A stretch of DNA of 64,000 bases from Massariosphaeria phaeospora. Its lineage: Eukaryota > Ascomycota > Dothideomycetes > Pleosporales. The notes below the pieces were generated by a model. That model did no database searches, was not told where the DNA came from, and saw nothing but the letters and a program-made list of their open reading frames with translations. This document shows positions 33,540 through 62,454 of this stretch, in pieces. The stretch covers positions 67,001-131,000 of the forward strand of contig JAADJZ010000005.1 of assembly GCA_011032825.1 (NCBI GenBank). Reading direction: 5' to 3'. Each line of letters opens with the position of its first letter. Positions within the stretch are counted from its first letter, which is position 1. A program made the position numbers and the translations under genes.

Positions 33540-36240
33540 CATACACCAGGTTCTCCCAACACATATATAAGTCCCACTCTGCTTTCCCTACACCTTTTCT
33601 CGCACATTCCGGCGACGCATCAAAGGTGCATTAAAAAAAATGTCGAGTGCAATGTGCATGCTTGTGGCCTCGCGGCGATTAAAAACCTTCACGGCAAAGA
33701 CCCATGGAGCCCTGTCAGTGCTTGAAAGGGGAATGAGAGTCTCGCCGGATGCGGGGGGTTTGGCTAAAACTGCGGGTTGATGAGCTACATGGGTGTGCGT
33801 GTGTTCTTGTTTTGAAAGAAGAGTAATATGGCTGGGGAAGTTGTACGGTGTGAGACGCACAAGATAGACAAGGAATGATTGCCGAGGGGGTATATAAGCT
33901 TCCTCGATACCTCCCTTTTTGTTACTGCGCAAATGTCTGGGAAAGTTGGAGGATTTACAAATGACACGGGCATCGACTATGGGCTCGGTCCGCGGGACTA
34001 AAACCTAGATCAGATACTTGGATGTTGTGTCGACGAGAGCAGCATTTCACAATAAAAAACCTATTCGCCATCCAGCACAAGCTAATGATGATCACCACCA
34101 TCTACCCTCGCTCAGCTTCAGCAACTCAAACGCATCGAAGGATCGCATAAGTTTTCTTGTTCCATCATCTTGCTGATTTTGCATCAAATTTTCCACCGCC
34201 AGAAACATCGCGGAGTCGTCAGACATTTTTAAGAGTTTACCCGCAACCATAAGTCGTTCCCATCAGCATTTTGATGTTATTTTGGGACTTGGGAAGTGTG
34301 GAGGATGTTTGAGAGTGGGCGGTGGAGCTTATATAGCACGAAGATTGAAAGTGGGTGATAGCTGTAGGTCTCGTGATGCGCGGACCACATAGAACAGTCC
34401 AATCGCTCTTTTCGAAGAAAACAACGAGCATGCGCAGTTATTCCTAATGTCTGTGGACGGAACTAAGCTGTTTGCAGAGTTCAAAGCACAACACATGCTC
34501 TGCCTCTATGTTTGTTTTTAGAAGCGCTAACGCAGCCATTTGTAGCCCAGGCTCGTGATTTTAGTTGAACCGCTTGGTTGCAACTTGCGGATGGGAGACT
34601 GAGAGAGGAAGAAAGGGAAAGGGAGAGGGGGCTTATATAGGCGCGGAAGTACGAATCGAGGTCAGGAGTGTACACTGCAGATTTTAAATAGCTTGGTTAC
34701 GTGGGCACGTTATCGAAACTCAGCGATGATGATGATGATGCCCCGCATCTGAGAATCGCAAGAGGGAAAACCGGGCGACGCACGCATCAGATGTGATCTT
34801 ATAAATTTTGGGGCAAAACAAGAGAACATTTTGGAGAGGTTTTGTGGTTTTCTAGGCCTGTTCAGTTGCTCGCATGGGAGGTGGTAGAAGAGAGGGAGAG
34901 ATGGCTTATGTAGTAGTCGAGGGGAAAAAGCATCGAGAAAAAGGACGAACTTGGAGATATGGGTTGAGAAGAGAAGTAGTTCACTATTCAGTGGTGATGG
35001 TGACGACCCGCATCCAAATACCCTGACCGAGTCCCCTGAAGGCGCACATCATGAGTATACGTCAAAAAGTTTTCAGAGGCCAGCGAAAGAACATGTGGAT
35101 GCCTCGTTGATTTTTTAGTTCCGTCGAGAACGTTCGTCAAGTGTAGTGAGGAAGTATTAGAAGACCGAAAAGAGGGCTTATATACCCACCTCACAACGGA
35201 GCGCCAAGAAATCGTCATGAAGAGAATGTTGTATTTGACAAATTCATCACATGATCTGATAACGATATACATCTCAGCGCAGCGAAACACACATTCTACG
35301 TCATCATGTTTAGTTTTTTGTTTCCCAGACACACATAGTCGGGGCCTAGTGTCATTTTTAGTTCTCCGATGATTGCTCGCGGAGTGTAGTACGAGGAGAG
35401 TTCGAGAGGTCGGGAAGGGGGGTTTTTATAGCCACGTTTGAAGAATTAAGAAACAAATGGAGATGCAGGACGTAGCCATTTGTTTCGGGCAGCTTTTCCT
35501 CCGCTGCTTTACAGTGATGGTGATGAGCATCTCACAACGAGAAAGAAATGCGAAAGAAACATATTCACGGAGCCCCATTGTGTTTTGGCGGCACCGCTGG
35601 CCACACACCATGCATTTCGCTCGACTAAGGTTTTAGTTGCGAGATCGCTCGCCATCGTTGCAGTGTAAAGAGAGAGTTAGAAGCTCAATCAAGGGGCTTA
35701 TATATGTAGACACAGACTACAAACCTGAAAAGCAACGACGATGATAATCACTACTATCTATCCCCACACACCACAGAAGCCGGACTCTCAGAAGATCGCA
35801 AACATGACACGGTGCTGTACACGTTTTCGAAGTCACTCGCCAACGCATGGTCGTGGTTGACGAAGGTTTTTATTCAGGATATCTTGAGGGGTCAAGGGTA
35901 AGGAAGGAAGGCTGTAGGAAACTGAAAGAGGGCTTATATACGTACCCACGAGCGCGGAAACTAGAAACACGACGGCGAGTGCATGTGTATCTCACTTCAG
36001 GTTGCGATTCATCATCCATCATTCTGTGATGATTCCAATCATCATCATCGTTATCCAGTACGCCCAATAAAACCAAAACCAACAACCCTATGATGAGTGT
36101 CCCTTACAATTTTAACTCAACCAGAACCAACGCAGCTATATCGGGCATTGAGAAATAATTTTACATACGACCTTGCGAAGTATGGTGTAAAGGAGATGGT
36201 AGAAAGTTGAGGGGGAGGAGGCTTATATACCGTTGATGAA
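33540..36240. repeat. Promoter-unit array, block A (about 10 units)
   Basis: Tandem, diverged, non-coding units. TATA cores on the plus strand are at 33564-33571 and 33891-33898. TATA cores on the minus strand (CTTATATA as written) are at 34328, 34632, 34905 (CTTATGTA), 35176, 35423 (degenerate), 35697, 35933 and 36222. Spacing is about 236-304 bp on the minus side and 327 bp on the plus side. Each TATA is followed by a pyrimidine tract and CTAAAA-type boxes (for example minus strand TTCAACTAAAATC then CTTCTAAAAAC downstream of 34639). Upstream of most lie TGATG/CATC half sites (35517-35538, 36029-36052). The two plus units and eight minus units face each other around 34.0-34.1 kb. No long conserved frame occurs. 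Confidence 0.7.
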
Positions 36241-37655
36241 TGCGTGACTGGTACGCGGCCGACACGTGCTATTATGTTGAAGAGAGGATCACTTGTAGCG
36301 GGAATGATGATGAGTATCAGCGAAAGTCGTGGATATCGGACAGCTTTCACACAGCCGACAAATGCACATGTCAGCCATGCAAATGAATCAAGCCTGGGGC
36401 AAGGCTGCACAGAGTCACGAATCCGTCGAGGCCAACACTCGATCGACTGGTGTCTGTGTACCACCGAGGTTCCTCGACAGATCCACATCAGCAGTAGCCA
36501 ATAATCACGTGCATGTGGTGACACCTGGCGCAGCCACTCACGTGAACTCACCTTCCTGGCAGTGAACTCCAATCCTCTTCTCGGTACATCCCCAGAACCA
36601 AAAGCCGACGCAGCCATCCCACCAAGCTCCTCCTCCCGCACAAGGCCCGCACCGTCTACCAAGCCATCCCCGTGCCCCCGCCTCCAACAATCCTCCCCTT
36701 AAACCGCTCAAGCCCCAACTACCACCTACCACCAATGTACGATGGACTTTCTTTCGCCGATCGCCGCAGTGTCCGACAACTGACTCGACTCGACTCCGCG
36801 CTATCCTGATGATCGCTCGTTCATTCATCGGAGGCCCCGACGTCTACAATCAACACTCCATTCGACACCACTTCCGGACCTCATCGTCAAAGCTTCGCGC
36901 CTCACGACTGACAAGCACTTGCGGCTTGTCAGCCAGCCGCCCAAAAAGAAATCAACGATCATGATGATCTTTCCCGCACGGGTCGGTGATAAGCGAGCCG
37001 GGATATCCCCGAGCGGGATCAAGCCACCAACACCTTGAAGCAGGCAAGAGATCCGCCCAGAATCCAGGGTCCCGCGGCTTTGTATCTTGGCTGGCAACGG
37101 TGTTCTTGGTTCTGTTGATCTGTAACGCGCTGAGTGATAAAACATCAGAAATGCACATGTCGAAAACTCGACCTCGGGGCCGACAGAGCGGAGCGACCAC
37201 CATGTTTTCTATACAGAAAAACCCCCCAAATTCTTCAAGCATTGCTTCTAGCGGCAATACTAGAGAGAACTCACCTGCAGCCCCCGGCCTAGCCCGCAGA
37301 GCATCCCGCGTCTCGTGATTGGTCACTAGGCGCTGATTGGCTCAGAACCAGGAACGGGTCTGATCCATCGACTTTCTTTTGCACGCAGGGACGCGCGACA
37401 TCTGACCGATATTTCTCCACGCGTGCAAGAAGGCGACCTTCGCAGAGGTTGGCGACGGGCGTAGAGGGCGCGGGTGGCATATCTCGACAGTATGTCGCTG
37501 ATAACGTTACCCCGGCTAGCCCAGGTACCTGGTTCCCGTTATATACCCTCCGTCGAATGATCGATGCTATGTACAAGCTTCGCGTTCGATCCACGTTCTG
37601 ACGTCTCCTCGACATCTTCCTTCCTTGTCTTCCGAACCTTGAGTCTTGAGCGAGG
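36241..37655. other. Intergenic region between array block A and the rhodopsin-domain gene
   Basis: About 1.4 kb. The first part may contain eroded array sequence (TGATG/CATC motifs near 36305 and 36958). Open frames on both strands are short and overlapping. No gene is called. Confidence 0.4.
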
Positions 37656-38988
37656 ATGGTAGAGCTCCAGGTGCCCATACTTGTCGTGTGCGCTCTTTCC
37701 GTCTTCATTGCAACATTCGCCATCGCGTGTCGGGTTCTGGCGCGTGTGCTCACGCACAAACCATGGCAGGCCAACGACTGGCTGATGTTGGGCGCATACG
37801 TATGATCCGTCCTCGGAGCGCAATGGTGTATACCGACTGACTGTATCGGTAGCTTGCGACACTGGGGATGCTGGTTAACGCGATGGTGTTTGTCTTCAGA
37901 GATTACTATGGAGTCCATACCTGGGATATACCGCTGGAGGATCGCCTGCGGATCAATCGACACCCGGAAGTGAGTAGTCAATCATCAGCAATGCGAGTAC
38001 ATTGTAACTAATGCCGTACTCAGAGTCGCTTTATCTTGACCACTTTCACGCTGAGCGCCAGCGTCTTCTGCAACCTCTCCATCACAGTGCTATACATGAC
38101 CCTCTTTCCACACCGGCGATTTCTCATAATGTGCAGAGTTATGTTGGTGCTGGTAGCGGGTTATTGGCTCACGTTCTTCATCGTGCAGTTTTTCTCATGC
38201 CCGCGACCGAAAGGGCCGAACAGAGTCGCAATGGCAGCGAAATGCGCGGAGAACATCAGAACAATATGGGTTTCCGCAAGTGTTATTGGCATGTTGCTGG
38301 ACCTGGCGAATTTGCTGCTCCCAATGCCCATCCTATGGAAGCTGCAAATGGCCTTGAAAAAGAAAGCTCGGCTAATTGTACTGTTCGGATTGGGATTTTT
38401 GTAGGTCGATTGGATCCTTACTGAGATCGCATGCAACTAACTCATCCTAGTATCGTTGGGTTAACAGCAGTGAGGATATGCTTGTACAGGAAGCTGGATG
38501 CCCAGGACTGGACGTACCACACCGGACGGATAATACTGTGGAGCGGCGCCGAACCCGCTCTTGGAATCCTCGCTGGTTGTCTGCCGATCATGTCGCCCTG
38601 TTTCCGCTTCGCGTCCAACAAGCTGAAATCGTCTTTTAAATCGACCGGTATCTCCAGTACTAAGGCCTCATCACAACCTGACCAAGTGCACCCGCCGACG
38701 ATAGGCGCAGCCAAGCGTTTTTCTATCCGTGGGATGGGGATGTCGATTTCAGCCACAGAGACAAATGCAGGCTTCAGCAGAATAGAGAACGACGGGTATC
38801 CGCTGACGACGATCGGTACCCAGGATGGGAACAGAGAGACGGATGATTGTGAGAAGGGAAACGCAAGGCATACCGAAGCCGATATGGCCGTATGCGCGAC
38901 AGGCCCCATATCTGAAACCGATCGCATTCGTCTCGAACGAGACGTCAATGTACAGGATAGTCCGAAACAAGGTCCAGGGAATAGGTGA
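37656..38988 (+). CDS. Seven-TM rhodopsin-domain integral membrane protein (4 exons)
   Basis: Exons 37656-37799, 37853-37969, 38024-38400 and 38451-38988 join to 391 aa; the introns are 50-54 nt. Seven hydrophobic segments are visible: VPILVVCALSVFIATFAIAC, WLMLGAYLATLGMLVNAMVF, FILTTFTLSASVFCNLSITV, FLIMCRVMLVLVAGYWLTFF, WVSASVIGMLLDLANLLLPM, LIVLFGLGFFIVGLTAVRIC and ILWSGAEPALGILAGCLPIM. A cytosolic Ser-rich tail follows. This matches the fungal rhodopsin-domain family (PTH11-related proteins without the CFEM head). Such proteins are candidate surface receptors; ligand unknown. The WSGAEPALGILAGCLP motif at TM7 is characteristic of the family. Confidence 0.85.
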
Positions 38989-39547
38989 CAGACAGCCAGT
39001 GACTATATTGGAACCTCCACACCATGACAGAGGGTCAGCTTCGTAGTGCCGTCCTCTGCCTCACGGAATCGCCCTCTGTACCGAATGTCACATTTGTTCA
39101 AGGCGCACCAGAATGCCCAAACTCGTGACTGCGTAGGCATCTCTGTCCGATGGGAACCCGAGGAGACAGGACAACGCGCGGTCGCCGAGGAATCCGCGGG
39201 TAACCTTTACGGTCATCTTTCAACCGGACCTGCAATGCGCAATGTTAAGTCGAGAATCCGAGGCTCTTAATAGAAGATGCGAGACGGAAAAGTAACACAG
39301 GTTTTCACCTATCGAACAGGGTCGAATCTGGATGTTCTATGGAGAGGATCGATATCTAATTGAGTTACCCTCGTGGAACGGGATACGACGATGGCCGCAG
39401 GCTCTGCGCTGTGATGGAAGCCACTCCCATCGACAAAAATTCGTTCGGATATCTGTCGGACCCTCGTCTGCACGTAGGTCGTAATGAGAACCGTATACTC
39501 AAAGGCGTCCGGCTAGATGCAGTGCAGCACCTGCGGGTCTGGTAGCA
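38989..39547. other. Intergenic region
   Basis: About 560 bp between convergent genes; nothing recognised. Confidence 0.4.
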
Positions 39548-40490
39548 TTACACGATATTGACCGTGAACGGAAGCGGTTGGCCACTCTGTTCGGCTTGTT
39601 TATACCCCTTCACAACAGATGTCGGCCATTTTAACGAGTGGTCTTTATCTTCACTAGGAAAGTTCTGAGCAATCCGGTCCGTTATGCCAATGCATAGGCC
39701 CGAATAAGTCGCTTCAATACAGGATTTGGCGTTGCCTGCGTTGCCTCTTGTCTCGACTGTACCCCAAAAGCGCCCATTGTCCATCTGTTCGGCGTATACG
39801 TCAATCGGTTTGACTGCGATCATGTTTAGGAGATCGACATTGTTTCGTACCACCGCCGGGTTGCTGCTATGCGGTACCCAAGAGTTCATCGAGGTCTGTG
39901 TAGCACTTGTCAAAGGAAGTAAGAGCGAACCTTGCTCAAGACTTGATGGCCCTATGGCATAGTCGAATGCACGATCCCTCACCGAAGGCGGCTCCTTTAA
40001 ATTCCCAGGTTCCAATTGTACGATAGCAGTATTCGTTCGGTAAAGGATGTCGATCAACTCTGTTGTGATGGCAGAAAACGTATTGGTCAATTCAGCTCCA
40101 CTCTTATCAAAAGTTGTCACCAACCACTTTTGCCCATACTCCGGTGTGCACTCGAACAGTGCATCTTGCCTATAATCTGGCGAGTCCCTGAACAGTGCGT
40201 TTATAGCCCATGCAATAATGAGAATGCGTAGTGGGTCTTCCCAGTGGCGCAAGGATTCAGAGCCTTGATTGACCATAAACGTCTCAATCAGCACGCTCAG
40301 CAATCGGACATCCCTGGAAGGACATATGTCCTGGAGAATTGCGTTGTTTATGCGTTTTGAAGATGGAGGGTGCGCCTCGAGATAGAAATTTTGCGCTAGA
40401 GGTAAAAGCAATGTGGCAGCTGAGGACTTGCCCGGAGTAAGAGAGTGTTCGGGGGGCTTTACAACCATAGAAATACTCCGGCCATATAGA
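39548..40490 (-). CDS. HET-domain protein, C-terminal part in shifted frame
   Basis: Minus-strand frame of about 310 codons (GLYGRSISMVVKPPEHSLTPGKSSAATLLLPL...KQAEQSGQPLPFTVNIV), open from the G6 run at 40491-40496. It continues the HET gene upstream in a frame displaced by one base and has the length and helical character of the usual C-terminal half of long HET proteins (LRILIIAWAINALFRDSP, DYAIGPSSLEQGSLLLPL). It has no start of its own that makes biological sense. I read it as part of the same gene, separated by a one-base length change in the homopolymer. Confidence 0.55.
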
Positions 40491-41814
40491 CCCCCCAAGG
40501 GTTTAACCAAGAAACTCCCAGAACGTCACGGCCGTCATCAACTTGTGAGGTGAACAAGGTACACGGCAACACGGACATGGACGTATACTTCGGACTCGTA
40601 GATTCGACGAGCCAATCAAGTGGACGTGCCGATAGGAATACCTTTTTTGTGTGGACAGCTGCAGGCTGTTTTCGTTCACACTCCTTCCAGAATATATCGA
40701 CTCCAACTGGGATCTCCTGATGACAATTGGCAGAATCATGAGACAGTAAGAGACCAGGAGGTCGTGCGTGACGCTCTTGAGACCAATCCGGAATCCAAGA
40801 TGGGAACATATCACCTGTGGGGGCTTGCAAAGATCCGAATTCGTATAAGTGAAGTATCAAATCGCGCTGTGAGGGACTGTTGACAAGAGCAACGGCGTAC
40901 TGTGTGTATATGTCTTGATAGCGTGCTTGGTAATCTAGTTCGCGTCGCATGCAAGAGGGCTGAAGTCCGCATAGCGCAGCTATCCGATCTCGCTTGTCGA
41001 AGCAAGCAGACTGGTGAAGATTCCAAAGAAGTGTATAAATATCGCAGTCTTTTTCGGTCAACGTGAGTGCCATCCGTACTCCATAACTGTGGTGGGCGGA
41101 GTCGAGTTGTTGGCATGCAGCCACAAATGTCGAATATGGAATCGAGTGACTACCGCAGAATATCGTTGCGTAGCGTGAAAGCGCTACTTCCTGTAGTATC
41201 CAGCGCCTGAAGAACCAGGGACGCTGGAAGAAGAGGTTCATCTCTTTCCGAGCGGATTCGTCATCGTCGAATATGTCTGACATTGAGAGTCTCCCGGGAA
41301 CCAGCGCCCGCGCCCGAAAAGCCGCGAAAACCTTAGCCACATCGTGCCCGTCTTCGACGCCTAGCCAAAAGTGAACTTTGTCGGCGAGTCCGTATATGTC
41401 ACCCATCAAGGGGATCTGTTGCCCTTTTTCTGCATCGTCCTTCTGGTTAAGACAAATTGCATCAATCCAGAGGAACCTCTTCTTGTGAGGCCTTCGAAAA
41501 TGCTGTAGCATGACCTGGACTTTCTCGGTGATTGGCAGATAGCAGTCACTGTTCAGCAAAAGTCGCTGAGAGAAAATGGGTTCACCCCATGTGTATGAGA
41601 CAGCGTGGTACTTTTGACGACCATTTACTCTGGCAAGCTCCTCGTATCTGTTGATATGGATGATGGAGGCTCGAAGAGGTAGCGATTTGGTTCCCGCTGG
41701 ATCAAGGCAGAGAATGCGCAGCGTCGCGGAGGACTGCAGGGGTTCATACTGGTACAAATGACGACCTTCGCCCTCGTGAGATGGGAATTGTCGTGATTCT
41801 AGACCGGCCATCAT
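40459..41814 (-). CDS. HET (heterokaryon incompatibility) domain protein, N-terminal part
   Basis: 451 codons from the ATG at 41814. The HET domain occupies about residues 60-210: YHAVSYTWGEP, RFLWIDAICLNQKDDAEKGQQIPLMGDIY, VHFWLGVEDG and PWFFRRWILQEVALSR are the classic blocks. Family members trigger cell death on non-self fusion. The frame stops at 40459 shortly after a G6 run (40491-40496 on the plus strand as C6), whereas the sequence just downstream continues in the adjacent frame, so the full gene would span 39548-41814 (about 750 codons). Either this is a recent frameshift, common in HET genes, or a sequencing error. Confidence 0.85.
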   Translation of the reverse strand: MMAGLESRQFPSHEGEGRHLYQYEPLQSSATLRILCLDPAGTKSLPLRASIIHINRYEELARVNGRQKYHAVSYTWGEPIFSQRLLLNSDCYLPITEKVQVMLQHFRRPHKKRFLWIDAICLNQKDDAEKGQQIPLMGDIYGLADKVHFWLGVEDGHDVAKVFAAFRARALVPGRLSMSDIFDDDESARKEMNLFFQRPWFFRRWILQEVALSRYATIFCGSHSIPYSTFVAACQQLDSAHHSYGVRMALTLTEKDCDIYTLLWNLHQSACFDKRDRIAALCGLQPSCMRRELDYQARYQDIYTQYAVALVNSPSQRDLILHLYEFGSLQAPTGDMFPSWIPDWSQERHARPPGLLLSHDSANCHQEIPVGVDIFWKECERKQPAAVHTKKVFLSARPLDWLVESTSPKYTSMSVLPCTLFTSQVDDGRDVLGVSWLNPWGVYMAGVFLWL

Positions 41815-42352
41815 TCTCGAGCGGGAGGTGACTAGTGATGAAATCTAGTCCCAGTCTGAGTCTGGTGGTGTTGAGATGACGTTATTGCTGCTGCCTGATC
41901 GCGCGGGGTTGCTCATCCAAATTGGCCGGTAACCGAACCAATAAGCGACCCATGTCTCTCAGCACAACACCACACCAAAAGCCACTCTGTCCTCCGGTAA
42001 CACATCAAAAATGTGTCTCACGGATGCATTGTGGCCGGTTCCAAAAATCATTCGCTGCCGTCTGACCTGCGCAGAAGGTTTGTGATGAATCTGTGAAGTT
42101 CCTTTGAAGCGCTCGTGCAACATGGACGTCGACGTCATCGACAAACCAACGGCAAGCCACATCCAGCCCGATTCATGACATCGCGCGTCAGTTCCCAAAT
42201 CGCGCTTCATCCACCGACACCCTCGCGTTTGATCTTGCTTGAGCGGTCTCCTCTCGCTCTTTTTTAACCGCTTGTAGAGTCCAGACAATAGCTACAGCCT
42301 CTTACTGACGCGACGCGCGCCGCCATACCCATAAACACTCCTTTAGCCGATC
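41815..42352. other. Divergent promoter region
   Basis: About 540 bp between the HET gene (minus) and the AlkB-like gene (plus). No gene. Confidence 0.45.
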
Positions 42353-49357: not shown

Positions 49358-49635
49358 AAACAGGGCATCGTGAAGTCTATGGTGTTTCTTGGATCAAAAA
49401 TTGCACGGTTCAGAGCGATGGGCGGGATGTTTTGGTGTGTGGGAGGGAAGATTGGAGGGTATTAGAGAGGGTGGTGTAGGGGGTGGTGATGGAGGTGGTG
49501 ATGATGGTCGCCATCTCTTGATGATGATGATCTCTCTTCACCGCTTCACACCACGCAAATTCTTAGCATCGCAACTTTCTCAGCATCGCAATCTCGACCG
49601 CCCACTCACGTGTTCCCCGCCTCCTCTCTACTACA

Positions 49636-49680
49636 TATATAAGCCCCCCAATCTCGACGTTTCTTTCTTTCTTCACACTG
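49636..49680 (+). promoter_or_regulatory. Core promoter of a block B unit
   Basis: TATATAAGCCCC followed by TTTCTTTCTTTCTTCACACTG, a textbook TATA plus pyrimidine-rich initiator. The probable start region is at about 49675. It is one of the best-preserved units. Confidence 0.65.
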
Positions 49681-49880
49681 GCTTTGTGCTTGCCTTCCCG
49701 AGCTATAAAATCATGAGCTTCTTAGCCCACGGTGGGCACTGTCTAAAAAGAAATGTTGCTCGAGCCCATGGTGTGGGTGCGTATTCGTTCTGCGCGGGAG
49801 AATGAAAAAGCTGGAAGAATTGGCCGATGGGACGGGGTGTGGGTGCGTGGCAGAACGGGATGTGGAGAGGGGGCGTAGTG

Positions 49881-49891
49881 GTGATCATCAC
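49881..49891. promoter_or_regulatory. Palindrome GTGATCATCAC upstream of a unit TATA
   Basis: Perfect 11-nt dyad (GTGAT-C-ATCAC), about 120 bp upstream of the TATA at 50010. One member of the TGATG/CATCA family of sites found before nearly every unit. Confidence 0.55.
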
Positions 49892-50009
49892 GGTCTCCGG
49901 GGGCTGCTTCTTCTCATCACTGCTTCACCCCGCTATTCTTCTTACCACTAGATCTTCTCCATGGAAGCCTACAACTACGTATTCTCATCTACCCCTCCTC
50001 TCCGCCGCA

Positions 50010-50060
50010 TATATAAGTCCCCCTTCCTTCCTCCTTTACTCTTCTTTCCTTCTTCACACT
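50010..50060 (+). promoter_or_regulatory. Core promoter of a block B unit
   Basis: TATATAAGTCCCC, then a CTTCC/TTTAC-rich tract and CTTCACACTTG about 46 nt after the TATA. Same layout as the unit at 49636. Confidence 0.65.
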
Positions 50061-50418
50061 TGCCCGGTGCATCCCTCTCTAGTCTATAAAATGCATGGAA
50101 TGAGGTGGAATGGCGGAGGCTGTTTCTAAAACCAGTGGTTGAGAAGCTCAATGGTGTGGGTGGGTGGGTGTGTTTTGCGCGGAAGAGACTGGAAAAGCTT
50201 GAAGAGCTGGCCGATGTGCTGCGGGTTTTGGGTTTTGGGTGGTAGACTAGGAGATAGCGAAAGGGTGTGGTGTTGGCATTACCACGGCCGCTTGGTGATG
50301 ATACTCTCCACACTGCTTAACTGGCGAGTCGTTCGCATTCATTTCCTTTTCGACACTACATCGTATCTACACGTTTACCTGCTTATTTCTTCTCTGCTTC
50401 CCCCTCTCTCCTCGCACA

Positions 50419-50470
50419 TATATAAGCCCCGCTTCCTTCCCCTTTCAAACTTCTTTCTTTCTTCACACTG
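50419..50470 (+). promoter_or_regulatory. Core promoter of a block B unit
   Basis: TATATAAGCCCCGC, a TTCC/TTTC-rich tract, then CTTCACACTGG starting about 42 nt after the TATA. Confidence 0.65.
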
Positions 50471-50517
50471 GTTTATACTTCCCTTTTGGGGGTTTAAACC
50501 CTACAGACGTCACCAGC

Positions 50518-50535
50518 ATGGCTGGGGCTGTCTAA
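50518..50535 (+). other. 18-nt micro-ORF in a block B unit
   Basis: ATG-GCT-GGG-GCT-GTC-TAA (M-A-G-A-V), 99 nt after the unit TATA. Confidence 0.4.
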
Positions 50536-50885
50536 AGCCACTGAGATGGGTTGTATGGCCTGGTTGGGTGCGTGTCTAGGGTTTTGCGGGTTAAAAAATC
50601 CAGATCGAGAGGGAGAATGGGTGTGCTTGTGCTTGGAACTGTGAGCGTGTGTTCGGGGGCCGGGCCGGGCCGGGCTGGACCCTGATGAGGCAGTGATGGT
50701 TATCATCATTACTCTGCGGTGTCGTCTCCTCGTCGCGAGTGTGCTGGATATATCGGAACGTCTACACTCACGTGCTCACTCGCTCTCTCTATCGCAAATA
50801 TAAGCTCCTCCCCCTCTATGCTTCCTTCTTCACAGATGCCTTGAGCTTCTCTCCTTCAGCTATAAAGCTCTCCTGGGTGAAGCGG

Positions 50886-50903
50886 ATGGCTTGGGGAGAC
50901 TAA
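50886..50903 (+). other. 18-nt micro-ORF in a block B unit
   Basis: ATG-GCT-TGG-GGA-GAC-TAA (M-A-W-G-D), 89 nt after the unit TATA. Confidence 0.4.
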
Positions 50904-51015
50904 AATGAAAGCTTGGACCACTTCATGGTGTGCGTTCTGCGTGGGGGAGTAAAATCATTGACGGGGAGCGGCATGTGCGGAGTGTGTAGTGTGAAGAGCG
51001 TGGGTGTCTGAAGTG

Positions 51016-51023
51016 CTTATATA
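51016..51023 (-). promoter_or_regulatory. Oppositely oriented TATA inside block B
   Basis: CTTATATA on the plus strand (TATATAAG on the minus strand) between two plus-oriented units. The minus strand downstream reads CTCTTCACACTACACAC, so it may be a complete reversed core promoter divergent to the TATA-less unit at about 51165. Confidence 0.45.
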
Positions 51024-51250
51024 CATAAATAGAGAGAGAACACGTGAGTGTAACACTTCCGAGTCCAGATCCAAAAATACAGATATTCAAAACTCTGCAG
51101 TGAGAAACGAGAATAATAGCAGTGGAAAAAACATCAAATAGAGATGGGGATGCTCATCACTACTTCCCGCTGGTCTCTCTTTACTACAGTTTTCTCTTCA
51201 CAATTGCGCAAATCACCTCCATGGGCTAGAAAGCATTTGACAAGCTCGTG

Positions 51251-51268
51251 ATGGCTTGCGCCGTCTGA
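51251..51268 (+). other. 18-nt micro-ORF in a block B unit
   Basis: ATG-GCT-TGC-GCC-GTC-TGA (M-A-C-A-V), in the unit that lacks a clear TATA. Confidence 0.4.
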
Positions 51269-51941
51269 AAACCGTTCTGCAACGACTCCATGGTGTTCGG
51301 TTTGTTCTGCGTGTCGCGGGCTGGAAACAGGAGTAGATGGAGAGTAAACGTAGTACCTGAATGTGGTTCCGGGGTGATGGCTATCTTCATCTCTCGTTGA
51401 TGCTTGAACCCGTGATACAGATGAGGCCCCCCTTGAGCATTCGCGCAAACTTTTATTATGCCTGAACCCGGCTGATCTTTCACTGTTTCTCATCAATCCT
51501 TCCCAGCTACTCGTGTATATAAGTCCCTTCAATTGATGCCTTTACTTCCTTCTCTACAGTTCCCTTGCAATTCTTCTATGCTCTTCTAAAACGTGTTGCA
51601 AGACGACAACATGGCGTGAGTGTGGTGTTTGAAAGGAACGATGGTGGCTTACTGTTCGCTGGGAAATCAAGAACATGAAGATTGCGAAAGATGTAAGCTT
51701 GCTCTGTTTGTGACAGTGGTTCACATGTGTGTATCGAGCTGCAAGAGTGGCGAGTAGCCACGATGATGATGATCATCCCCACTATCCAGCCGCAATCGAA
51801 AGATTTCTCAAATACATGCTACCCAGAAAACCTTCCACTACCGTCTCTCGCCGCCGCACTCTTATATAAGTTCTCGATCAGTCTACCGTTCTTAATCTAC
51901 ACCTACTTCGTTAATAGTGAAAAAGAAATTGGAACGAGCCT

Positions 51942-51959
51942 ATGGCTTTCGGAGTCTAA
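51942..51959 (+). other. 18-nt micro-ORF in a block B unit
   Basis: ATG-GCT-TTC-GGA-GTC-TAA (M-A-F-G-V), 79 nt after the unit TATA at 51863. Confidence 0.4.
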
Positions 51960-52498
51960 AAACAGACCATGGACAACCCATGGTGGGGCGTTTTCACATA
52001 CTGCACGTCAATAAAAGCTCACTGACATAGGCAGTAGTATGGCCATAGGGAAAAGGGGGGGCGTGTAGAGAGAGGTTAAGAGTACATCAGCGTAGAAGCG
52101 ATGCACTGTAGTGGTGACGATGATCATCTTGGATCGATAGCGGGTCCCCGCTTGCATCTCCTTCCTTCGCTTCTATCTTTATCTAAGCTCCTTCTTTCTT
52201 CGTCCTTGTCTTTCTTTTGCAACCTCTCTCTCCCTCATGTCTACTAAAAGTTCCGGGAAAGATGTTCATGCTTTTGCGGGTGTGGAAAACTCCGGAAACC
52301 AGTGCTATGGCTTGGTGAAGTGAGTGTGTCAAATCTCAGAAGATAACCATAACGATAGGTGTTGAAGCCTGGATTTAGTTTGAAGGTACGCTAATTAGGT
52401 GGTGTGGAACGCATAGGGATGCTATCTTCTAGTTTATGTTTCTGTTCTACATCATCCTTCTGTCTACATCTACTAAAAAGATTATAGCTGAAGAAGTC

Positions 52499-52516
52499 AT
52501 GTTTTTGCGGGTGTAA
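52499..52516 (+). other. 18-nt micro-ORF in a block B unit
   Basis: ATG-TTT-TTG-CGG-GTG-TAA. The neighbouring unit at 52268 has ATG-CTT-TTG-CGG-GTG-TGG, where the stop is lost. Confidence 0.35.
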
Positions 52517-52620
52517 GAGGAGGTTATAGAAACAACCATGGTGTCGTTCGCGCATTTGTTACACGCTATGCCATAGTATATGCAGAGTGTCAAATATTAT
52601 CAAAAACATGTTGATCGAGG

Positions 52621-52720
52621 GTAATGATGCGCGTGCTTCTGGACTTTCTCCCAGTCCTTGTCTATAAAACCCTTTTTATCCCATAACTCAATCTTTTTCA
52701 CAATCTTAACTATTTGCTAT
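52621..52720 (+). promoter_or_regulatory. Promoter of the embedded regulator gene, resembling an array unit
   Basis: A TAATGATG half site near 52622, TATAAAA at 52663-52669 and a CTTTTTCACAATC start-like element about 35 nt later. The same order (half site, TATA, CT tract with CAC) is seen in the array units. It lies about 290 bp upstream of the ATG at 52957, so a 5' UTR of about 250 nt would be needed. Confidence 0.4.
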
Positions 52721-52956
52721 TTGAATCTTAACTCGAATACGTGTTCACTTGCAAGATGCTGATTACCCTTGACCATGGGGCCGCCATATTCACGTGATCG
52801 CGCCAAGCCGCCAGGCGTCCCCTAGGCTGTCGGTTCGGTCTTAGTGTGCTTATCGCCGCTGTCTTTCGCACCTTCAACCTTCGAAACTTCCTCCGATCTC
52901 CTCACTTAGATAGATCAACACGTTCCACCTACAACGGCCACCATCGGTTCAAACTA

Positions 52957-54520: not shown

Positions 54521-54989
54521 TGGTCCTCCCATCCTCTGGTCCAGTGACCATTGAGGTTGAGGCGTAGAAATTACGTTTGGATCAGTCGATCTGTCCCCCA
54601 AGCCACACCCCATCGATACATTCCAAGGGCCATTCTATTACCGCCAAAGTCCCATTACGACGGCCCTTTGCAACATTGTGGGAGTAGGTGATACCCATGA
54701 ATGTGTGTCAAACAAGGAAATAACTGGAGAATGAGACTTATGTACTTACACTTCCTCTACTACGTGTTCTCCCATTTCTGCGACTCAAAGATGCGGATCA
54801 CCAGCAACTGTATCAGTATCTTGGTCCTGAAATCCGGGATTGGCGGCAATTATGCGACCGCCTACTAGAGACCTGATGCAAGCATTTAGGATATGGTTTA
54901 TTAACGCGCGAGTCTCAAGCAACACCATGCAAGGGTGTCATGATGAATTTTAGAAAGACCTCAGTGTTTATTCACGGTGTGGAGAAGAA
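54521..54989. other. Spacer between regulator gene and array block C
   Basis: About 470 bp. No gene and no clear array unit. Confidence 0.4.
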
Positions 54990-57327
54990 GGGAAGTGCAG
55001 GGCTAGAGAGCGGGCTTATGTACCCCTTCCCTCTTCACTCCACGTTCGGAAATTCCACAGCTCTAGGCATTATTCCTACACTTTCAATAAGTTTTGTTTC
55101 TTCCGGAGCACCTCAAACAACCAAGCATATGCTATCGAAAACTTTCCGTTTTCATAGCGCTTCATCTATGCGTCCGCTCGCACACCATCAAACCTTGTCC
55201 TCTCATGATTTATTAATGAGCTAGGCAAAGCAGCTACACCACATCGACAAGGTCCATTGTGTTTTAGAGAGCTCTTGGGTGGTAGTCGCGGACTTTAGAG
55301 AAAAAGAAAAGCTGAAAGTATTCTAGGGCTTATATACCCACTACCCTCTTGGTCTTCATCCATCCCGATCTTTCTCCCCATCACTAAACATCGACTATAC
55401 GCAGCACCATTATCGCTCCGCTTCACATCAACCCCGTTCCCCCATCTTTATACCCGGAATCCTCCACATAAATCTGAGACTTTGTCGAGAGATCTGCATT
55501 TTACACCCTTAACGCCTAACTCACCTGCACACGCATAATACTCTTTCTTGTTCAGTTCTGTTAACAGAACAGTCGCTGCGCTACCCTATATGTTTCGGAA
55601 CGGCGACCTTTTAGAGTAGCCTTAGTAAAAAATGAGGAGTGTGTGAAAGAAGAGGAGGGCAGGGTACGACAGGAGGGGCTTATATACTCTTCCCGTCCCC
55701 GCTCAACGTTCTAGGGTCCGAAATTCCAGGACGTGCAGCATACCTCCTGCCGTGTCATCTTTTCGAACTTTGATCCCGCTAGCGCGCCGAAATCTCTGAG
55801 AACCATTTTTGACTTACCCCCAATGGACCATATCATGCCAGTTTCGACGTTTCTTATTACTTGCACATAGCTAAATCTACACATATTTGTAACACTTCCA
55901 GTTCTTTTTACACCCACTCCTCCAAGCCATCATAATGGTGTCCCTCGGATTCGATATGATCAATCAGATTACTCATAGCGAGAATTGCTATTGGTTTTAT
56001 TTTGATAAGTTGAAGTCCAACCCGGCTTACTCCATGAAACCTTCGCTGGATGCTTTTATTCCAGTGGAGAAAAGTACTTGCGAGCAAAGTGTAGAGAAAA
56101 GCAAACAAAGAGTGAATTACTTCGGGCTTATATATCTGGCCGCGGACGTTCCAGCGTCATGGTCGAGGCGATAGTGGTGAGCATCAGCACAACGCCTAGC
56201 GATCACAGTTTGAACAGTTTTACTCACAACGACGAAACTCCAGGCGCACTTGCTTCACGGAAGATAAGGTATCCTTTTCATATTACTTAGATGGTGTTTT
56301 TGTACAGTGTAAATGAGAAGACGTAGAAGACAGGCACACGGTGCTTATATATGCGGTAGAAGAAATCACGACAACAGGGCGTAATGCTGCTAAACACCAC
56401 CACGTGGATATTGCAAAGCAAGAACGAAGCTTGACAGAAGACATCTATCATAGCCTTGTATTTTTAATCTGCGGCAAGGTCCACGCGCAGCTTACTCCAT
56501 GGGGTAGGACATGGAACTTTCTTAATCAAGTAGCGGAAAGCACTTGATAGTGTGAGAGAAGAAAAAGAGGGCAGGTAGGGAGTGTTTATATACCCCCTAG
56601 AAGACGTCACGGCAGAGTTTCATGGTAATGGTGATGTTGCTGCTGAACATCTATACATCAAGATCAAGAAAGGGACCAAAGCCTATAAAAATACACTCAA
56701 CGTTGAGCACGGCCTAGACGTTTGAATTCGTGACGAGGACAAGGCAGAGCTTACCCATGAAGTGTTCTGCATGGCAGTTTCAATCAAGTAGAGAAAAGCT
56801 CATGAGAGTGTGTAGTGAAAAGGTATATTGGAGGTAAAGAACAGAGTGCTTATATACCCCCCGGAAGACATCACAGCAGAGGATCGTAGTGATAGTGATG
56901 CTGCTGCTCAACATCAACATAAGAAGATAATGAAGCAGTAAATGATTCTGAATAAACGCAACAGACATGACCGCGATTTCAATATTTTCCGGGGCAGGGA
57001 CCACGCGGAGTTTCCTCCATACATCTGTTCAAAGAGCGATTTTAATCAAGTAGAAAAAATCTCTACTAAGTAAAGAGAAGACAAAGAAGAGTAGGAAAGT
57101 AGTGCTTATATACCCTTCAAAGGATGTTAGGGTGAAGTAGCGTTGTGGTAACGGTGCAGAACACCAGCCCAAGAAAATCTTGAAACGAGGAAGAATGTCA
57201 TTACACCGTAGTCAACCTCAAACAGCAGGCTATAGGTTTTAATCACATCGAAGGTCCGCGCGGAGCTTACTCCATACCTCCGTTCGAGTAGTTTTTTTCT
57301 TCAATCGCCAAAATGAGCATGCTCGTG

Positions 57328-57346
57328 AGAGAGAGAGAGAGAGAGT
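57328..57346. repeat. (GA)n microsatellite in block C
   Basis: Expanded form of the purine tract (pyrimidine on the transcribed sense) that lies between TATA and the presumed start site in every block C unit. Confidence 0.7.
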
Positions 57347-57667
57347 AGGAACGCCGGACTTATATAGCTATCTTCGAAAATCGTCCACGTGACCTATAGG
57401 GAGCGTACTAATTGACTAATAATGGTGCTGATTGTCAACATATGTGGAGACCTCTATAATAGACTACATGCAGATCCTAGCCACATGAATAATAACCTTG
57501 ACCTTTTTATTCAACGAAGGCCCACACGGAGCTTACTCCATGCGTCATTTCCAGCGTTATTTTACTGGAGTCGAAAGCACTTCCGAGTGTGAAGAAAAAG
57601 AAGAAAAGATTAGGATCGCGGGGCTTATGTGCCCTCTCTCCTGCCAACCACGCTGCCGCCTCAGTCA

Positions 57668-57684
57668 GTGATGCCGAGCATCAC
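57668..57684. promoter_or_regulatory. Dyad GTGATGCCGAGCATCAC upstream of a unit TATA
   Basis: Perfect 6-bp arms (GTGATG / CATCAC) around a 5-nt centre, about 40 bp upstream (minus sense) of the degenerate TATA at 57624-57631. Confidence 0.6.
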
Positions 57685-58342
57685 CACCAGGGACATGAGA
57701 ACATAGCCACCAAAATCCCGCACCCTCCACACACCCAGTCAACACCACATCAAACACGGCCTTGAAGTTTTAGAAGTCCCGCGCAGACCTCGCACCATCG
57801 AAAACTGCCATTGTCCCTTTTAGTCCACCCAAGGAACACACTCGCCTCGTGCAGAGAGTGGAAGAGGAGGATTGAGGAAGGGATAGGGACTTATATACTC
57901 TCCTTCCCTTCTCTATCTTCTAGTCGCCTTAGTAAACCGCATTCAGAACCAAATCACTACCAGGGTAGGTGATCTTGGTCGCGCCAATGTGCGATTATAA
58001 CGGCGAAGCCCGCCCAGGCTCACTCCATAATGTTGAGGTGTTCGAGGTTTTTAGTTACTTAGAGAATTCGATATGTGTAGTGTAGAGAGAAGAAGAAGTG
58101 CATTAAGAAACGTGGGGCTTATATAACCTCCCTCCCTTCATACCATCCCTTACTACCATGTCGCCCTAGTTACTGCTGAACATCACTACTAGCAGGAATA
58201 CGTACAAGGCCACTATAACCTGAACCCTCGTAAAACACATCGATCAACGGGCGGCTAATCTTATACGATTCACGTCCGCGCGGGGCTCACTCCATGGATT
58301 GCCGCCATGGGGTTTGTGGTAGAGTAGAGGATCAAACCCGTA

Positions 58343-58393
58343 CACTGTAAAGAAAAGAAGAAGAGAGAGAGTAAGAAACGCAGGGCTTATATA
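58343..58393 (-). promoter_or_regulatory. Core promoter of a block C unit
   Basis: Minus strand: TATATAAGCCCTGCG, a CTCTCTTCTTC tract and TTACAGTGTACGGG about 45 nt after the TATA. Representative of the central block C units. Confidence 0.65.
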
Positions 58394-58664
58394 CCCTTAG
58401 AATAGGTGATACGATAGTAGCGGCGGCGGCGGTGGAGAATCTTGAAGTAATAATAATGCTGCTAAGCATTACTTGAACCGTACCAACCGCAGTCGCAGCC
58501 GTATCTAGTCACGACGCCACAACGGGGATCCGCGCGGTGCTCACTCCATACCTTGTTTGACTTTTACGTTTTTTGTTGAGGAGAGAATTGAACTCGTACA
58601 GTGTAAAGAGAGAAAAGAGGGAGTAGAGAAAGAGAGGACTTATATACCCTAAGCATGGACAGTA

Positions 58665-58690
58665 AAACAGCGGCGGCGGCGGCGGCGGTG
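58665..58690. repeat. (CGG)n run beside a unit TATA
   Basis: CGG triplets immediately upstream (minus sense) of the TATA at 58639-58646. Similar shorter runs occur at 58421-58435 and 62070-62088. Confidence 0.7.
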
Positions 58691-59729
58691 AATCTTGAAG
58701 TGATGATGTTGAACATCACTCATCGCCACAAAAGAACCAGCATATCGACGCCTCGGCAAATTCTTACTAAACGCAGTTGGAACAGCATCGAGCACAGTCT
58801 CCTGGTTTTAATCGCAACGAAGACTGCACAAAGCTTCCCCATTTGGCATACTTCTTTAAATTTTTAGTCAAGCACAGATTTTAAACCAGTGCAGTGTGCA
58901 GAGAGAGAAGGATGTAGAAAGTATAGGTTTGAGGGCTTATATACCCCAAGCATGGAGAGTACGGTAGCGGCAACAGTAGTGGCGGCGGAAGGGCATCGGA
59001 GTGGTAATGCTAATGAACATCACCATGCAGAAACGACATCAACAACGCCACGCAGTCAGCATGCAGGACCACAGCTTCTCTTTTTTATCGCGACGACGAA
59101 GGCCCGCACAGGCTCACCCATGAAGAGATATTTTAACGTCTTTTAGTTGAGTAGAGGATTAGTCCCGTACACAGTGTAGAGAAGAAGAAGTAGAGTAAGT
59201 AGATGTGAGGGCTTATATAGCCCTAGAATATGCAGTAGAACAGCGGCGGCGGGGGTGACGGTGATGGATATGCAGTAGGACGGCGGCAATAGTGGTGATA
59301 GTGACGGAGCTTTGGAGTGATATAGCAATGCTGCTAAACATCACCGCGAATGAACATGCACCTAGCTACCTAGTGAAAATCGCATCGATCATAACCTGAC
59401 TAATCTTTCTCTACGGCACCACATGTCAATTATAGTCTAAATCTTTTTTGTTTTTTATTTTAGTATAGACTTAAACTTATATAATAGAGGAGAGAAGAAG
59501 AACGCAAAACGAGAAACGCGGTACTAATATATGTAGCGGAAGTAAAGAAGCGTCGTAGTAATTCGAAAGTGATGCTGAACACCACTATGGAAAAAACACG
59601 TACCCAGCGCCTCAAAATCACATTGCCCATAGCCTCAGCATGTTTCAATCAGGAGGCGGCTCCGCACGGAACCTACTCCATGCATTGCTACCTTAAACGT
59701 TTTTAGTTAAGTATTGACTTGAACCCGTA

Positions 59730-59781
59730 TACTGTGGAAGAGAAGACAAAAAAGCAAAATGAGAAACGCGGTGCTTATATA
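59730..59781 (-). promoter_or_regulatory. Core promoter of a block C unit
   Basis: Minus strand: TATATAAGCACCGCGTTTCTC, then TTGTCTTCTCTTCCACAGTA followed by TACGGGTTCAAG. The spacing matches the unit at 58386. Confidence 0.65.
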
Positions 59782-59818
59782 TGCAGCGGCAGCGGATAGG
59801 CGTTGCAGTGGTTCGAGA

Positions 59819-59835
59819 GTGATGCTAAACATCAC
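59819..59835. promoter_or_regulatory. Dyad GTGATGCTAAACATCAC upstream of a unit TATA
   Basis: Perfect 6-bp arms around CTAAA; the near end lies about 38 bp upstream of the TATA at 59774-59781. The best match to the block C consensus GTGATGCTGAACATCACC. Confidence 0.65.
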
Positions 59836-62454
59836 CAAAAGGCTTACGTACACTACTACTCAGTCAAAGCCCTATCAAGCCACCTAGCAACATAGTCGAA
59901 AATGAAACCCACATCAATCGCAGCTATGAGAGTTTCGAATTCGCTACAACGAACGTCCGTACAGGGCTCACCTCATCTGTCGAATATATAGGTTGTTCTA
60001 GTCGATTAGGCTCAGACCCGTACACACTGTAAAAAAAGAAGAAGAAGAGAGAGTGAGAAACGCAGGACTTATATGTAGCGGCGCGGCGGCTGAGCAGCGT
60101 TGCAGTTATACGAAAGCGATGCTGAACATCACCGCAAAGATAACATGTACACAGCCCTTAGTCAAAAGCAGCAGCCTAACAGTCCTCCAAGTCGCGACGA
60201 CAAATATCCGCACACAGCTCCCTCCATGATATCGCTTGACAAGTAGTTTGTTTTTAGTTCAGTACAGGCTCTAACCTGTACGTTGTGACGAGAGAAGAAG
60301 AGGAGAGAGCGAGCAATGTATAACTTATATATGCGGCAGCCGCCGCAGCTAAACACTGTTCGAGAGGAAGTGCTGATGAACATCACCACGAGGAAAACGC
60401 ACATAGCTACCCAGTCAAGATCTTAAACCCGCATCAAGTTCCATCAACGGCAGCGTTGAGAGTTTTATCCTCGACGGCGAAGGTCCGCACACGCACACGC
60501 TTACTCCATGTTGTGATAATAACATATTTTTTTAGTCGTGTACAGGCTCAAACCCGTACACCGTAGAGAAGAAAAGAAGAGAAGCAGAGGAGGTAAGAAA
60601 CGCGGGACTTATATACCACACCACACCCCTGCGTTAGAAACTGCGCCATACCCAAATTGACTCAAGTCCAGTCCACTCCGTGCATTATACCGATATTAGT
60701 AATGCAGACCACCACTAGGCGAAATATACATTATCACCAACGTTGATAGTGAACTAGAAACGAAGTCTAACCGGCCCCGTGCTGAAATCCCATGGAATTG
60801 ACTCGTTGCGGTTTTATTGTGCGAGGGAGAAGGCAGACGCGCTGCCATCATAGAGTAGTGCAACATTCTTAGTTGTGTTGAGGAATAGGAGAGCGAAGTG
60901 TAGAGAAGAAGAAGATGAAGAGGAGGGAGGAAAAGGGGGCTTATATATGGGTCTGGCGGCGGCAGCAGAAAACCACGAGACTAACACTGTGCTGTGCATC
61001 ACCACCGAATTCGACGTTAAACCCACATTGACTGCAGCCCTAAAAGTTTTTAAACAAAGGTCCGCACACAGCTCCATGGCATGCCGTATCCGATATTTTT
61101 GGTCGTGTACAGAATGAAACCCGTACACTGTGTAGCGAAGAAGAAGAAAACTTGAGAGTGAGAAACAGGGGGCTTATATACCCTCAAAAGATATGACGTG
61201 GCGGCGGCGACGGCGACGGAGACGCGCTCAGTGATGGTCAGCGCCACCATCACCACCCAGCGAAGCACAAACCAAACCAACCAACCTTGCATATTCACCA
61301 AAGGCGAGTCAGAATCAGATATATTGTGGACTGATGGTTTTTATCGCGTTGCCTGAGGGAAGATCTGGACGCGCTTCCATCACAAAGCATCGGAAACAGT
61401 TTTAAATGTGTGGGAGCTATGGAGAGAAGAAGGAGAGTGAAGGCGAGAAAGTGGGGGCTTATATACCCCTCAGAAGTACAACACCGTAAGTGATACCTAC
61501 CTACCTACCTAGTAGCAGTAACGCTGCACATCACCATCACCATCCCCCCCTCTCCCCAAAAACACCCAGCGAAGCAAAACCCAGCTTTACTCGTTCACCA
61601 AGCAACACGAGTCCGAACCCCATGGGACTACCACATTGTATTTTTAATTGCATTACGCAAGGGGAGCTAGACACGCTCCCATGAGTCAACATGCAGACCG
61701 GTTTTAGATATGTAGGTCAGTGTAGAGGAAAAGGGAAACGAGAGTGAAGGGTGAGGAACGGGGGCTTATATATGTCAGCGGCGACGGTAGCGGAGAATCA
61801 TTCCAGCGATGATCACCACCACCATCACTCCCCTTCCAAAAATACCCAGCGATCTAGAAACCAACCTTGCATGTTTACAGCAACGCGAGTCCGAACAGCA
61901 TAATAGTAGTTTCGAGAAGTTTTCTTTGCGCGAGAAGAGGCGGACGCGCTCCCATCATCTTTTGGTGGGTGTTTTTAGATGTGCTAGAGCAGGAGGGCGA
62001 AGTGTAGAGAGGAGAAGAGGAGGTAGAGCGTAAGAGGAGGGGCTTATATACCCTCAAAGAGCGTATGACGCGGCGGCGGCGGCGGAGGAGTGCACAGTGA
62101 TGGACACAGGTGGTAATGCTGCCCATCACCACACCATCACCATCACCATCACCAGAAAACAAACACCCCGCGGAACAGAAACATAACTAGGAGAAGAGGG
62201 AGTGCGGAGTGAGAGGAGGGGGCTTATATAGATGGATGGAGAGAGTGAGATGTGGCGGTGGAGAAATCCATGTCATGGTGATGATGGAGAACATCACAAC
62301 CAAGTACTGATAAACTGGAAAAAAGTAAAACGAACTGAATCATCGATAGGAATTGCGCATTGACGTTAACGTTAAGAAAACCCAGGTATGCCAAACCCCA
62401 CCCAAACTATATACAACCCCGAAGCGAATCAATCCCACTCTTCCACCTCCCCCA

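Follow-up and report, generated by a model that had tools for sequence, protein, structure and literature searches.

A CTAAAA–ATGG spacing rule defines arrays of putative non-coding RNA genes in the fungus Massariosphaeria phaeospora

Introduction

C/D box guide RNAs, found as small nucleolar RNAs (snoRNAs) in eukaryotes and as small RNAs (sRNAs) in archaea, carry the boxes RUGAUGA and CUGA. The boxes are short and conserved and lie around variable segments of constrained length, and the genes are multi-copy and often clustered. Arrays with a different box grammar are described here from Massariosphaeria phaeospora (Pleosporales; 42.08-Mb assembly), in a 64,000-nucleotide (nt) stretch of contig JAADJZ010000005.1 (positions 67,001 to 131,000, forward strand), which is called the window and whose own coordinates are used below. 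Three blocks of tandem units lie in it: block A, whose first two units are on the plus strand (33564..34025) and whose remaining units are on the minus strand (34205..36229); block B, on the plus strand (49636..52502); and block C, on the minus strand (54925..62230). The units are led by a TATA element, mostly the 8-mer TATATAAG, and contain one to several modules, often two and sometimes three, of the form (W)CTAAAA-N18-19-ATGG, in which CTAAAA is box X (box 1), ATGG is box Y, and the stretch between them is the insert.

The two boxes stand at a fixed distance, the first insert is free in sequence, and no reading frame is kept; the blocks belong to a set of such arrays spread over the genome. 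These arrays may constitute a new family of non-coding RNA genes in which the box pair frames an exchangeable, guide-like segment, a tentative reading to which we give a probability of roughly 0.4. We know of no family with this box grammar, and no description of such a family was listed in searches of open-access full texts.

Materials and methods

Loci were taken around clusters of motif matches, nine on contig 1 and 20 on eight other contigs. Units were parsed from the window, from six of the contig 1 loci (L009–L014) and from the 20 others (L021–L040), with L001–L008 and L015–L020 left out. A unit was defined by a scored first module with an insert of 16–21 nt, with penalties for lengths other than 18–19 nt. 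Of 198 units parsed, two minus-strand rows of L036 were dropped, so that 196 were kept from 27 sources, several of which hold a single unit. Because L009–L017 and L021–L040 were chosen by their own motif matches, the presence of units there is expected by construction. The scored first module yields 37 units in the window, among them one at 59478 (+), on the strand opposite to its surroundings, which we consider a false call; it is kept in the unit counts and omitted from the parts given below. Where close pairs of units were chosen by flank identity, the choice includes an artefact from L036; the clean version is the ranking of pairs by all other pieces.

The spacing rule was first noticed in units of the window and contig 1, and the distance tests made there reuse the same data; the genome-wide counts of the N18/19 module and of an N13/14 control spacing, together with the second and third modules, reach beyond the data of first notice.

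Results

Logos of the 196 units show TATATAAG followed by CCC, then W-CTAAAA, a stretch of near-zero information, and ATG followed by G or T; the W is conserved even though it was ignored in the scoring. First inserts are 18 nt long in 77 units, 19 nt in 75, 20 nt in 22, 17 nt in 20 and 21 nt in 2, a distribution that is partly selected because the scoring demands a first module with a favoured insert length. Four kinds of measurement are free of this selection: distances at exact TATA sites, distances inside and outside the blocks, second and third modules, and the N13/14 control. Among the 38 exact-TATA units of the window, TAAAA and ATGG are separated by 23, 24 and 25 nt in 6, 13 and 3 units, respectively, and 60 shuffles never gave more than 2 at any distance; at 33 sites of contig 1, distances of 22, 23 and 24 nt occur in 2, 8 and 3 units. 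When all TAAAA-to-ATG distances of 8–44 nt are counted, 46 of 93 fall at 22–25 nt in the blocks (14,250 bp, both strands), as against 6 of 49 in 72,000 bp outside them. Second and third modules, on which the choice of units did not depend, place 101 of 265 and 30 of 92 counts, respectively, at 21–24 nt, and a scan made with no anchor found 45 modules in the blocks and 4 elsewhere in the window. An earlier interpretation drawn from the letters of the window (the sequence-only reading) had listed CTAAAA and ATGG among the parts of the units; both boxes are real and prove to be a pair at fixed distance, and it was this main rule, a repeated box pair with an 18–19-nt insert, that the list had missed.

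Such units also occur outside the window, in clusters on other contigs. Genome-wide, CTAAAA-N18/19-ATGG has 257 matches (107 for the reversed pattern) and the control spacing CTAAAA-N13/14-ATGG has 68 (117 reversed). A neighbour lies within 5 kb for 69 of the 100 N18/19 matches listed (contigs 1–13), and for 2 of the 68 N13/14 matches (0 of 24 on contigs 1–13). The pattern TATATAAGCCC likewise has 257 matches, as against 9 for its reversed control, and many of these are clustered among the matches listed (100 of 257); TATATAAG has 1534, as against 1371 for the reversed pattern.

The array layout and the wide divergence of the units would also suit a relic satellite, in which old tandem duplicates have drifted apart through repeat-induced point mutation (RIP) or mutational bias and serve no function, and RIP-like composition does occur elsewhere in this genome; drift, however, would not hold a spacing of 18–19 nt around free sequence, and the RIP composite index of the three blocks (−0.49, −0.43 and −0.05, as against 1.4–1.9 in L015, L017, L047 and L048) carries no RIP signature, so that RIP was rejected as the cause of unit divergence and the relic is the least probable of the readings considered. 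The four reference loci are themselves of strongly RIP-like composition, with GC contents of 0.28–0.31. An ordinary tandem satellite was rejected as well: of six rows reported for the window by Tandem Repeats Finder none corresponds to array units (a single row, a CCATCA run at 62123-62154, touches a block), which indicates that the copies share motifs and not overall sequence, and likeness within clusters is uneven along the unit.

The spacing might instead be read at the level of DNA, by a DNA-binding protein that contacts the boxes two helical turns apart downstream of the promoter, in which case the arrays would be regulatory DNA or decoy promoters. Short boxes set 18–19 bp apart would be a suitable arrangement for paired contacts with DNA, and the arrays are known here from DNA sequence alone. 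The distance from the TATA to the first module, however, varies by more than 20 nt; among 46 modules at 33.0–62.5 kb the strand is that of the nearest upstream TATA in 37 and the opposite in 4, with 5 undecided; and many modules in one array of contig 1 (L012) have no TATA. The variable TATA distance and the occurrence of TATA-less modules weaken this explanation, which we regard as improbable.

The freedom of the first insert was gauged over 12 pieces of the unit, with 1150 pairs of units ranked by how closely all their other pieces are related. In the top 10% of pairs, the first insert has the lowest excess identity of all pieces (0.015, standard error (se) 0.008), beside 0.107 for the 19 nt before the box and 0.135 for the 19 nt after ATG; upstream pieces give 0.075, 0.038, 0.041, 0.030 and 0.031, and the leader is conserved among related units. 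The first insert varies as freely as far-upstream DNA does, and more freely than any piece near it. Three units of L030 illustrate the pattern, with 71–95% identity on either side of the module and 42–47% in the insert, where unrelated inserts give 46% in the same alignment. A single promoter in L012 leads a series of TATA-less modules in which the flank after ATG is kept and the inserts change. When 17 modules are set in fixed register, box X has a pairwise identity of 0.66 and the 25 positions from ATG one of 0.63; the insert scores 0.33 and the sequence upstream of the box 0.27, chance being 0.25. The second insert is conserved among related units (excess identity 0.112, se 0.025, 37 pairs), which argues that modules differ in role.

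The main rival of the guide-like segment fits these data almost as well: the modules may act as a ruler that has no guide, within a scaffold or decoy RNA for a two-domain RNA-binding protein that reads CUAAAA and AUGG, the insert being a single-stranded linker in which length counts and sequence is irrelevant. Insert length is held while its sequence is free, an RNA with several modules would lend itself to multivalent binding, and target searches with the inserts found none. A linker, however, has no need of the conservation seen in the second insert, which has the same boxes and length, and we judge this explanation unlikely, though stronger than any other alternative to a guide.

Pairing of the insert with its own unit was rejected, since the energies are about those of swapped inserts: −11.75 kcal/mol (swapped, −11.96) with the downstream part, −6.98 (−6.89) with the leader and −11.34 (−11.30) with the upstream part. 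These values bear on a further possibility, that an RNA of 22–24 nt is cut from between the boxes or with them included (U-AAAA-N18, for instance) and taken up by Argonaute, as are the microRNA-like RNAs (milRNAs) of fungi. The box-to-box distance of 22–24 nt is the usual length of an Argonaute guide and U stands at the left edge in 82% of units; the insert, however, has no special partner inside its own unit, and the precursor hairpin of a milRNA is not found, so that a small-RNA precursor appears more improbable still than a DNA-level element. Short words of the inserts are somewhat more frequent in the 324,581 bases of taken DNA than in shuffles (12-mers, 52 and 73 on the two strands vs. 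32.0 and 31.7; 14-mers, 3 and 11 vs. 1.4 and 1.6), an excess that stems partly from CCA repeats and sister units. Antisense runs to ribosomal RNA equal those in shuffles at the one 5.8S match of the assembly (contig 23, 1474287-1474440), which lies in RIP-like DNA and is itself AT-rich, RIP-like and damaged.

It had been proposed from the sequence that the units are genes for short non-coding or micro-peptide RNAs. The first half of that proposal, multi-copy promoter-led non-coding units that fit no Rfam family, finds support; the micro-peptide half does not. If ATGG were the start codon of micro-peptide or degenerating protein genes, the G or T that comes after ATG in most units would be explained, as would the short peptides that by eye seem repeated in some clusters. 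In 187 units with an ATG, however, the mean number of codons to the first stop is about the same in the three frames (23.6, 24.2 and 24.0); second-module boxes fall in all frames (37, 27 and 39 of 103), so that spacing ignores frame; and differences are spread evenly over codon positions 1, 2 and 3 (69, 60 and 65 in 41 close pairs; 185, 177 and 190 in 89 pairs). In block C, moreover, 8 of the 21 minus-strand units with an ATG reach a stop after two residues. Apparent synonymous changes in L033, L010 and L012 had hinted at a kept reading frame, which the flat codon-position counts undo, and coding function is very improbable.

The unit family matches none of the known families tested. In the window, a single tRNA exceeds the Rfam gathering score and no family does so for the units; at a relaxed threshold, 3 matches in 13 kb of the window and 8 in eight loci all lie below gathering score, and among snoRNA models only snoZ40, sR2, sR5 and sR28 appear in the same DNA, at E values of 0.42 or worse. 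The boxes of C/D box snoRNAs are not seen, the logos of the 196 units being WCTAAAA and ATGK, and no snoRNA model reaches gathering score in the window. The hairpins of H/ACA snoRNAs are not found, there being no consensus pairs and the stretch after ATG folding as shuffles do. An origin from U6 was rejected too: the six genomic matches to RF00026 (U6) lie outside the window and the taken array regions, they contain neither CTAAAA nor the ruler in the stretches shown, and their sequences differ. One of these loci (L046; contig 48, 1900803-1900900) holds a U6 copy interrupted after ACGCTCAA by a stretch that starts with GTACGT, holds CTAAC and ends in GCAG before TCAAAGAGAA, and thus looks like an mRNA-type intron.

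The promoter parts in the window partly confirm what the sequence-only reading had described. The recurrent 8-mer is borne out, with 39 exact copies of TATATAAG in the window and 38 between 33.5 and 62.3 kb, against a mean of 0.58 and a largest value of 4 in 100 dinucleotide shuffles, and the three blocks lie where that reading had put them; matches at 51861 (−) and 51863 (+) are one overlapping site read on both strands. Its count of about 47 units compares with about 44 by hand, and its TATA-to-start spacing of 35–50 nt agrees with a CACA-type site, searched from 25 nt past the TATA start in the window and taken clusters, that 115 of 196 units possess, with a median distance from the TATA of 41 nt (10–90%, 34–50). 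Of the 37 window units, only 7 have the palindrome it had described as always present, sought as GATG N0-6 CATC in the 160 bp upstream; over all sources the palindrome occurs in 25 of 196 units as against 4.2 in shuffles and is hence enriched. The GCGCGG element can be seen by eye in many units of blocks B and C and is not general. A combined palindrome-plus-TATA pattern has 0 matches, and a start pattern at fixed spacing just 2. The half-sites GGTGAT and CATCAC lie within 160 bp upstream of the TATA in 55 and 34 of 196 units (13.4 and 9.2 in shuffles) and are possibly a shared activator site.

The individual units are given here from TATA to box Y, with the first insert in brackets. In block A, the plus-strand TATA at 33564 precedes modules at 33680 and 33765, and that at 33891 a module at 33999. 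TATA or TATA-like elements of its minus strand lie at 34328, 34632, 34905, 35177, 35697, 35933 and 36222; those at 34632, 35177, 35697 and 35933 lead units at 34536..34639 (variable insert 34540-34558), 35091..35184 (35095-35112), 35608..35704 (35612-35630, which has no other genome match at up to 1 mismatch) and 35845..35940 (35849-35867).

Several block B units have three modules, among them those with TATA at 49636 (49636..49830; inserts 49711-49728, 49749-49767 and 49809-49826) and at 50010 (50010..50217; inserts 50092-50109, 50132-50150 and 50197-50213). The block continues on the plus strand with TATA 50419 (50419..50521; 50499-50517), the TATA-like element 50797 (50797..50889; 50868-50885), where modules also lie at 50901 and 50950, TATA 51516 (51516..51614; 51592-51610), TATA 51863 (51863..51983, module at 51957) and the TATA-like element 52180 (52180..52271; 52250-52267), which is accompanied by a TATA-less module at 52474.

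Block C, all on the minus strand, is situated downstream of a minus-strand pirin gene. In ascending coordinates, its units are those of a TATA-like element at 55015 (54925..55022; 54929-54947), TATA 55329 (55241..55336; 55245-55261) and TATA 55679 (55586..55686; 55590-55608), where box Y reads ATAG. Second modules at 55999 and 56466 belong to the units of TATA 56127 (56032..56134; 56036-56053) and of the TATA-like element 56585 (56497..56592; 56501-56519). Units of TATA 56849 (56755..56856; 56759-56777), 57105 (57017..57112; 57021-57039) and 57359 (57272..57366; 57276-57294) are followed by one with a degenerate TATA, CACATAAG, near 57639 (57483..57646; modules 57564 and 57509). The unit of TATA 57890 (57795..57897; second module 57772) has an insert (57799-57817) that matches nowhere else in the genome at up to 2 mismatches. 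TATA 58118 (58025..58125; 58029-58048) and 58639 (58546..58646; 58550-58569) come next, then TATA 58936 (58839..58943; 58843-58861) and 59212 (59118..59219; 59122-59140), whose second modules are at 58810 and 59087. A degenerate unit at 59524 (59421..59531; 59425-59444) precedes TATA 59774 (59678..59781; 59682-59700) and the TATA-like element 60068 (59973..60075; 59977-59995). Second modules at 60467, 60816 and 61052 accompany TATA 60608 (60506..60615; 60510-60529), 60940 (60845..60947; 60849-60866) and 61173 (61074..61180; 61078-61095), and the last units given are those of TATA 61458 (61377..61465; 61381-61399), 61765 (61679..61772; 61683-61701; second module 61646) and 62043 (61952..62050; 61956-61972).

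The first units of block A lie downstream of an open frame on the same strand (32041-33360), and arrays in ten loci (L009, L010, L011, L012, L021, L025, L026, L029, L032 and L033) start downstream of a same-strand gene. These ten genes were picked by that very position, and there is no control set. They are unrelated (NIPA, PXA/sorting nexin, MATE, Sec20, RTC4, and five with no Pfam domain over cut-off, of which two have sub-threshold matches only and three no match), and a common gene family beside the arrays was rejected.

Elsewhere in the window lie genes for an F-box-like protein (29527-30654), a HET-domain (heterokaryon incompatibility) protein between blocks A and B (40459-41814, −) and a 2OG-Fe(II) oxygenase (PF13532; 42353-43360). 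The window also holds an open frame for a fungal transcription factor, which matches a Massariosphaeria phaeospora protein at 100% identity across 98% of its length. The tRNA (27078-27183, +; Rfam, 50.7 bits) perhaps carries an intron, since it is 106 bp long; ARAGORN with the bacterial code is silent on it. To the right of the window, loci L019 and L020 (contig 45, 131–151 kb) hold at least six related open frames of 351–528 codons, about 31–36% identical over long alignments.

Discussion

If the arrays are non-coding RNA genes, RNA polymerase II would make a transcript of about 200 nt from each promoter, as suggested by the TATA, the pyrimidine tract and the CACA at a median of 41 nt. A protein complex would read the CTAAAA and ATGG boxes as a ruler, and the first insert could then serve as an exchangeable guide that pairs with a target specific to its unit. 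Tandem duplication, followed by change of one stretch of 18–19 nt, would create new specificities.

Several results weigh against this proposal. The arrays are known from the DNA of one fungal genome alone. Far-upstream DNA (0.030, se 0.007) is not clearly more conserved than the first insert (0.015, se 0.008), whose low identity could come from a plain absence of constraint just as well as from diversification; two units of L022 (2900 and 3211) have 13 nt of insert in common, and some module inserts in L012 resemble each other. Two inserts searched against the whole genome at up to 2 mismatches found themselves and one 2-mismatch site (neither has another match at up to 1 mismatch), and all 196 inserts searched against the taken DNA gave no full match, the longest being 15 nt. 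Nor is a common fold supported: RNAalifold found 0 pairs in 56 units, in an alignment that is rough outside the boxes, and folding between modules, after ATG, shows no excess over shuffles (0.00, se 0.23). The sequence ahead of box 1 shows a small excess of folding over shuffles (−0.72 kcal/mol, se 0.15); it has 0.0 kcal/mol in 7 of 37 window units, and the covarying hairpins noted early are therefore not general. A shared fold was rejected.

Should the arrays make RNA, they would form a large non-coding family defined by a spacing rule, and not by sequence or fold, and such a family would escape homology searches and covariance models. Should the first insert guide, they would amount to a eukaryotic RNA-guided system with a built-in repertoire. 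The fullest version of this proposal is doubtful: an undescribed guide-RNA system of Pleosporales, made of tandem non-coding RNA genes with an exchangeable 18–19-nt guide flanked by CUAAAA and AUGG; it would diversify as genes duplicate and inserts are replaced, and would perhaps be directed against foreign or selfish RNA. Either way, the grammar is simple and searchable and can be applied to other fungal genomes.

Compared with known systems, the units are like U6 small nuclear RNA (snRNA) genes in that a TATA would lead a short RNA, and the U6 genes of this genome contain CATGG; they differ from its six U6 matches in having CTAAAA and the ruler. They are like fungal milRNA loci in a box spacing that equals small-RNA length, and unlike them in an insert with no pairing partner inside its own unit. 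Arrays of clustered regularly interspaced short palindromic repeats (CRISPR) and their precursor CRISPR RNAs also alternate conserved parts with changing inserts of set length, a pattern found in part in L012, where the run stands behind one promoter; no CRISPR effector or acquisition protein is present among the Pfam-matched genes (five of the ten array-side genes), though no Cas-directed search was made. Unlike CRISPR arrays, those described here have a eukaryotic host, conserved parts that diverge greatly between clusters and, in most parsed units, a TATA of their own. With C/D box guide RNAs the units share conserved short boxes around variable segments of constrained length, in many and often clustered copies; they reach no Rfam snoRNA gathering score where searched, and their boxes are instead CUAAAA and AUGG, set 18–19 nt apart.

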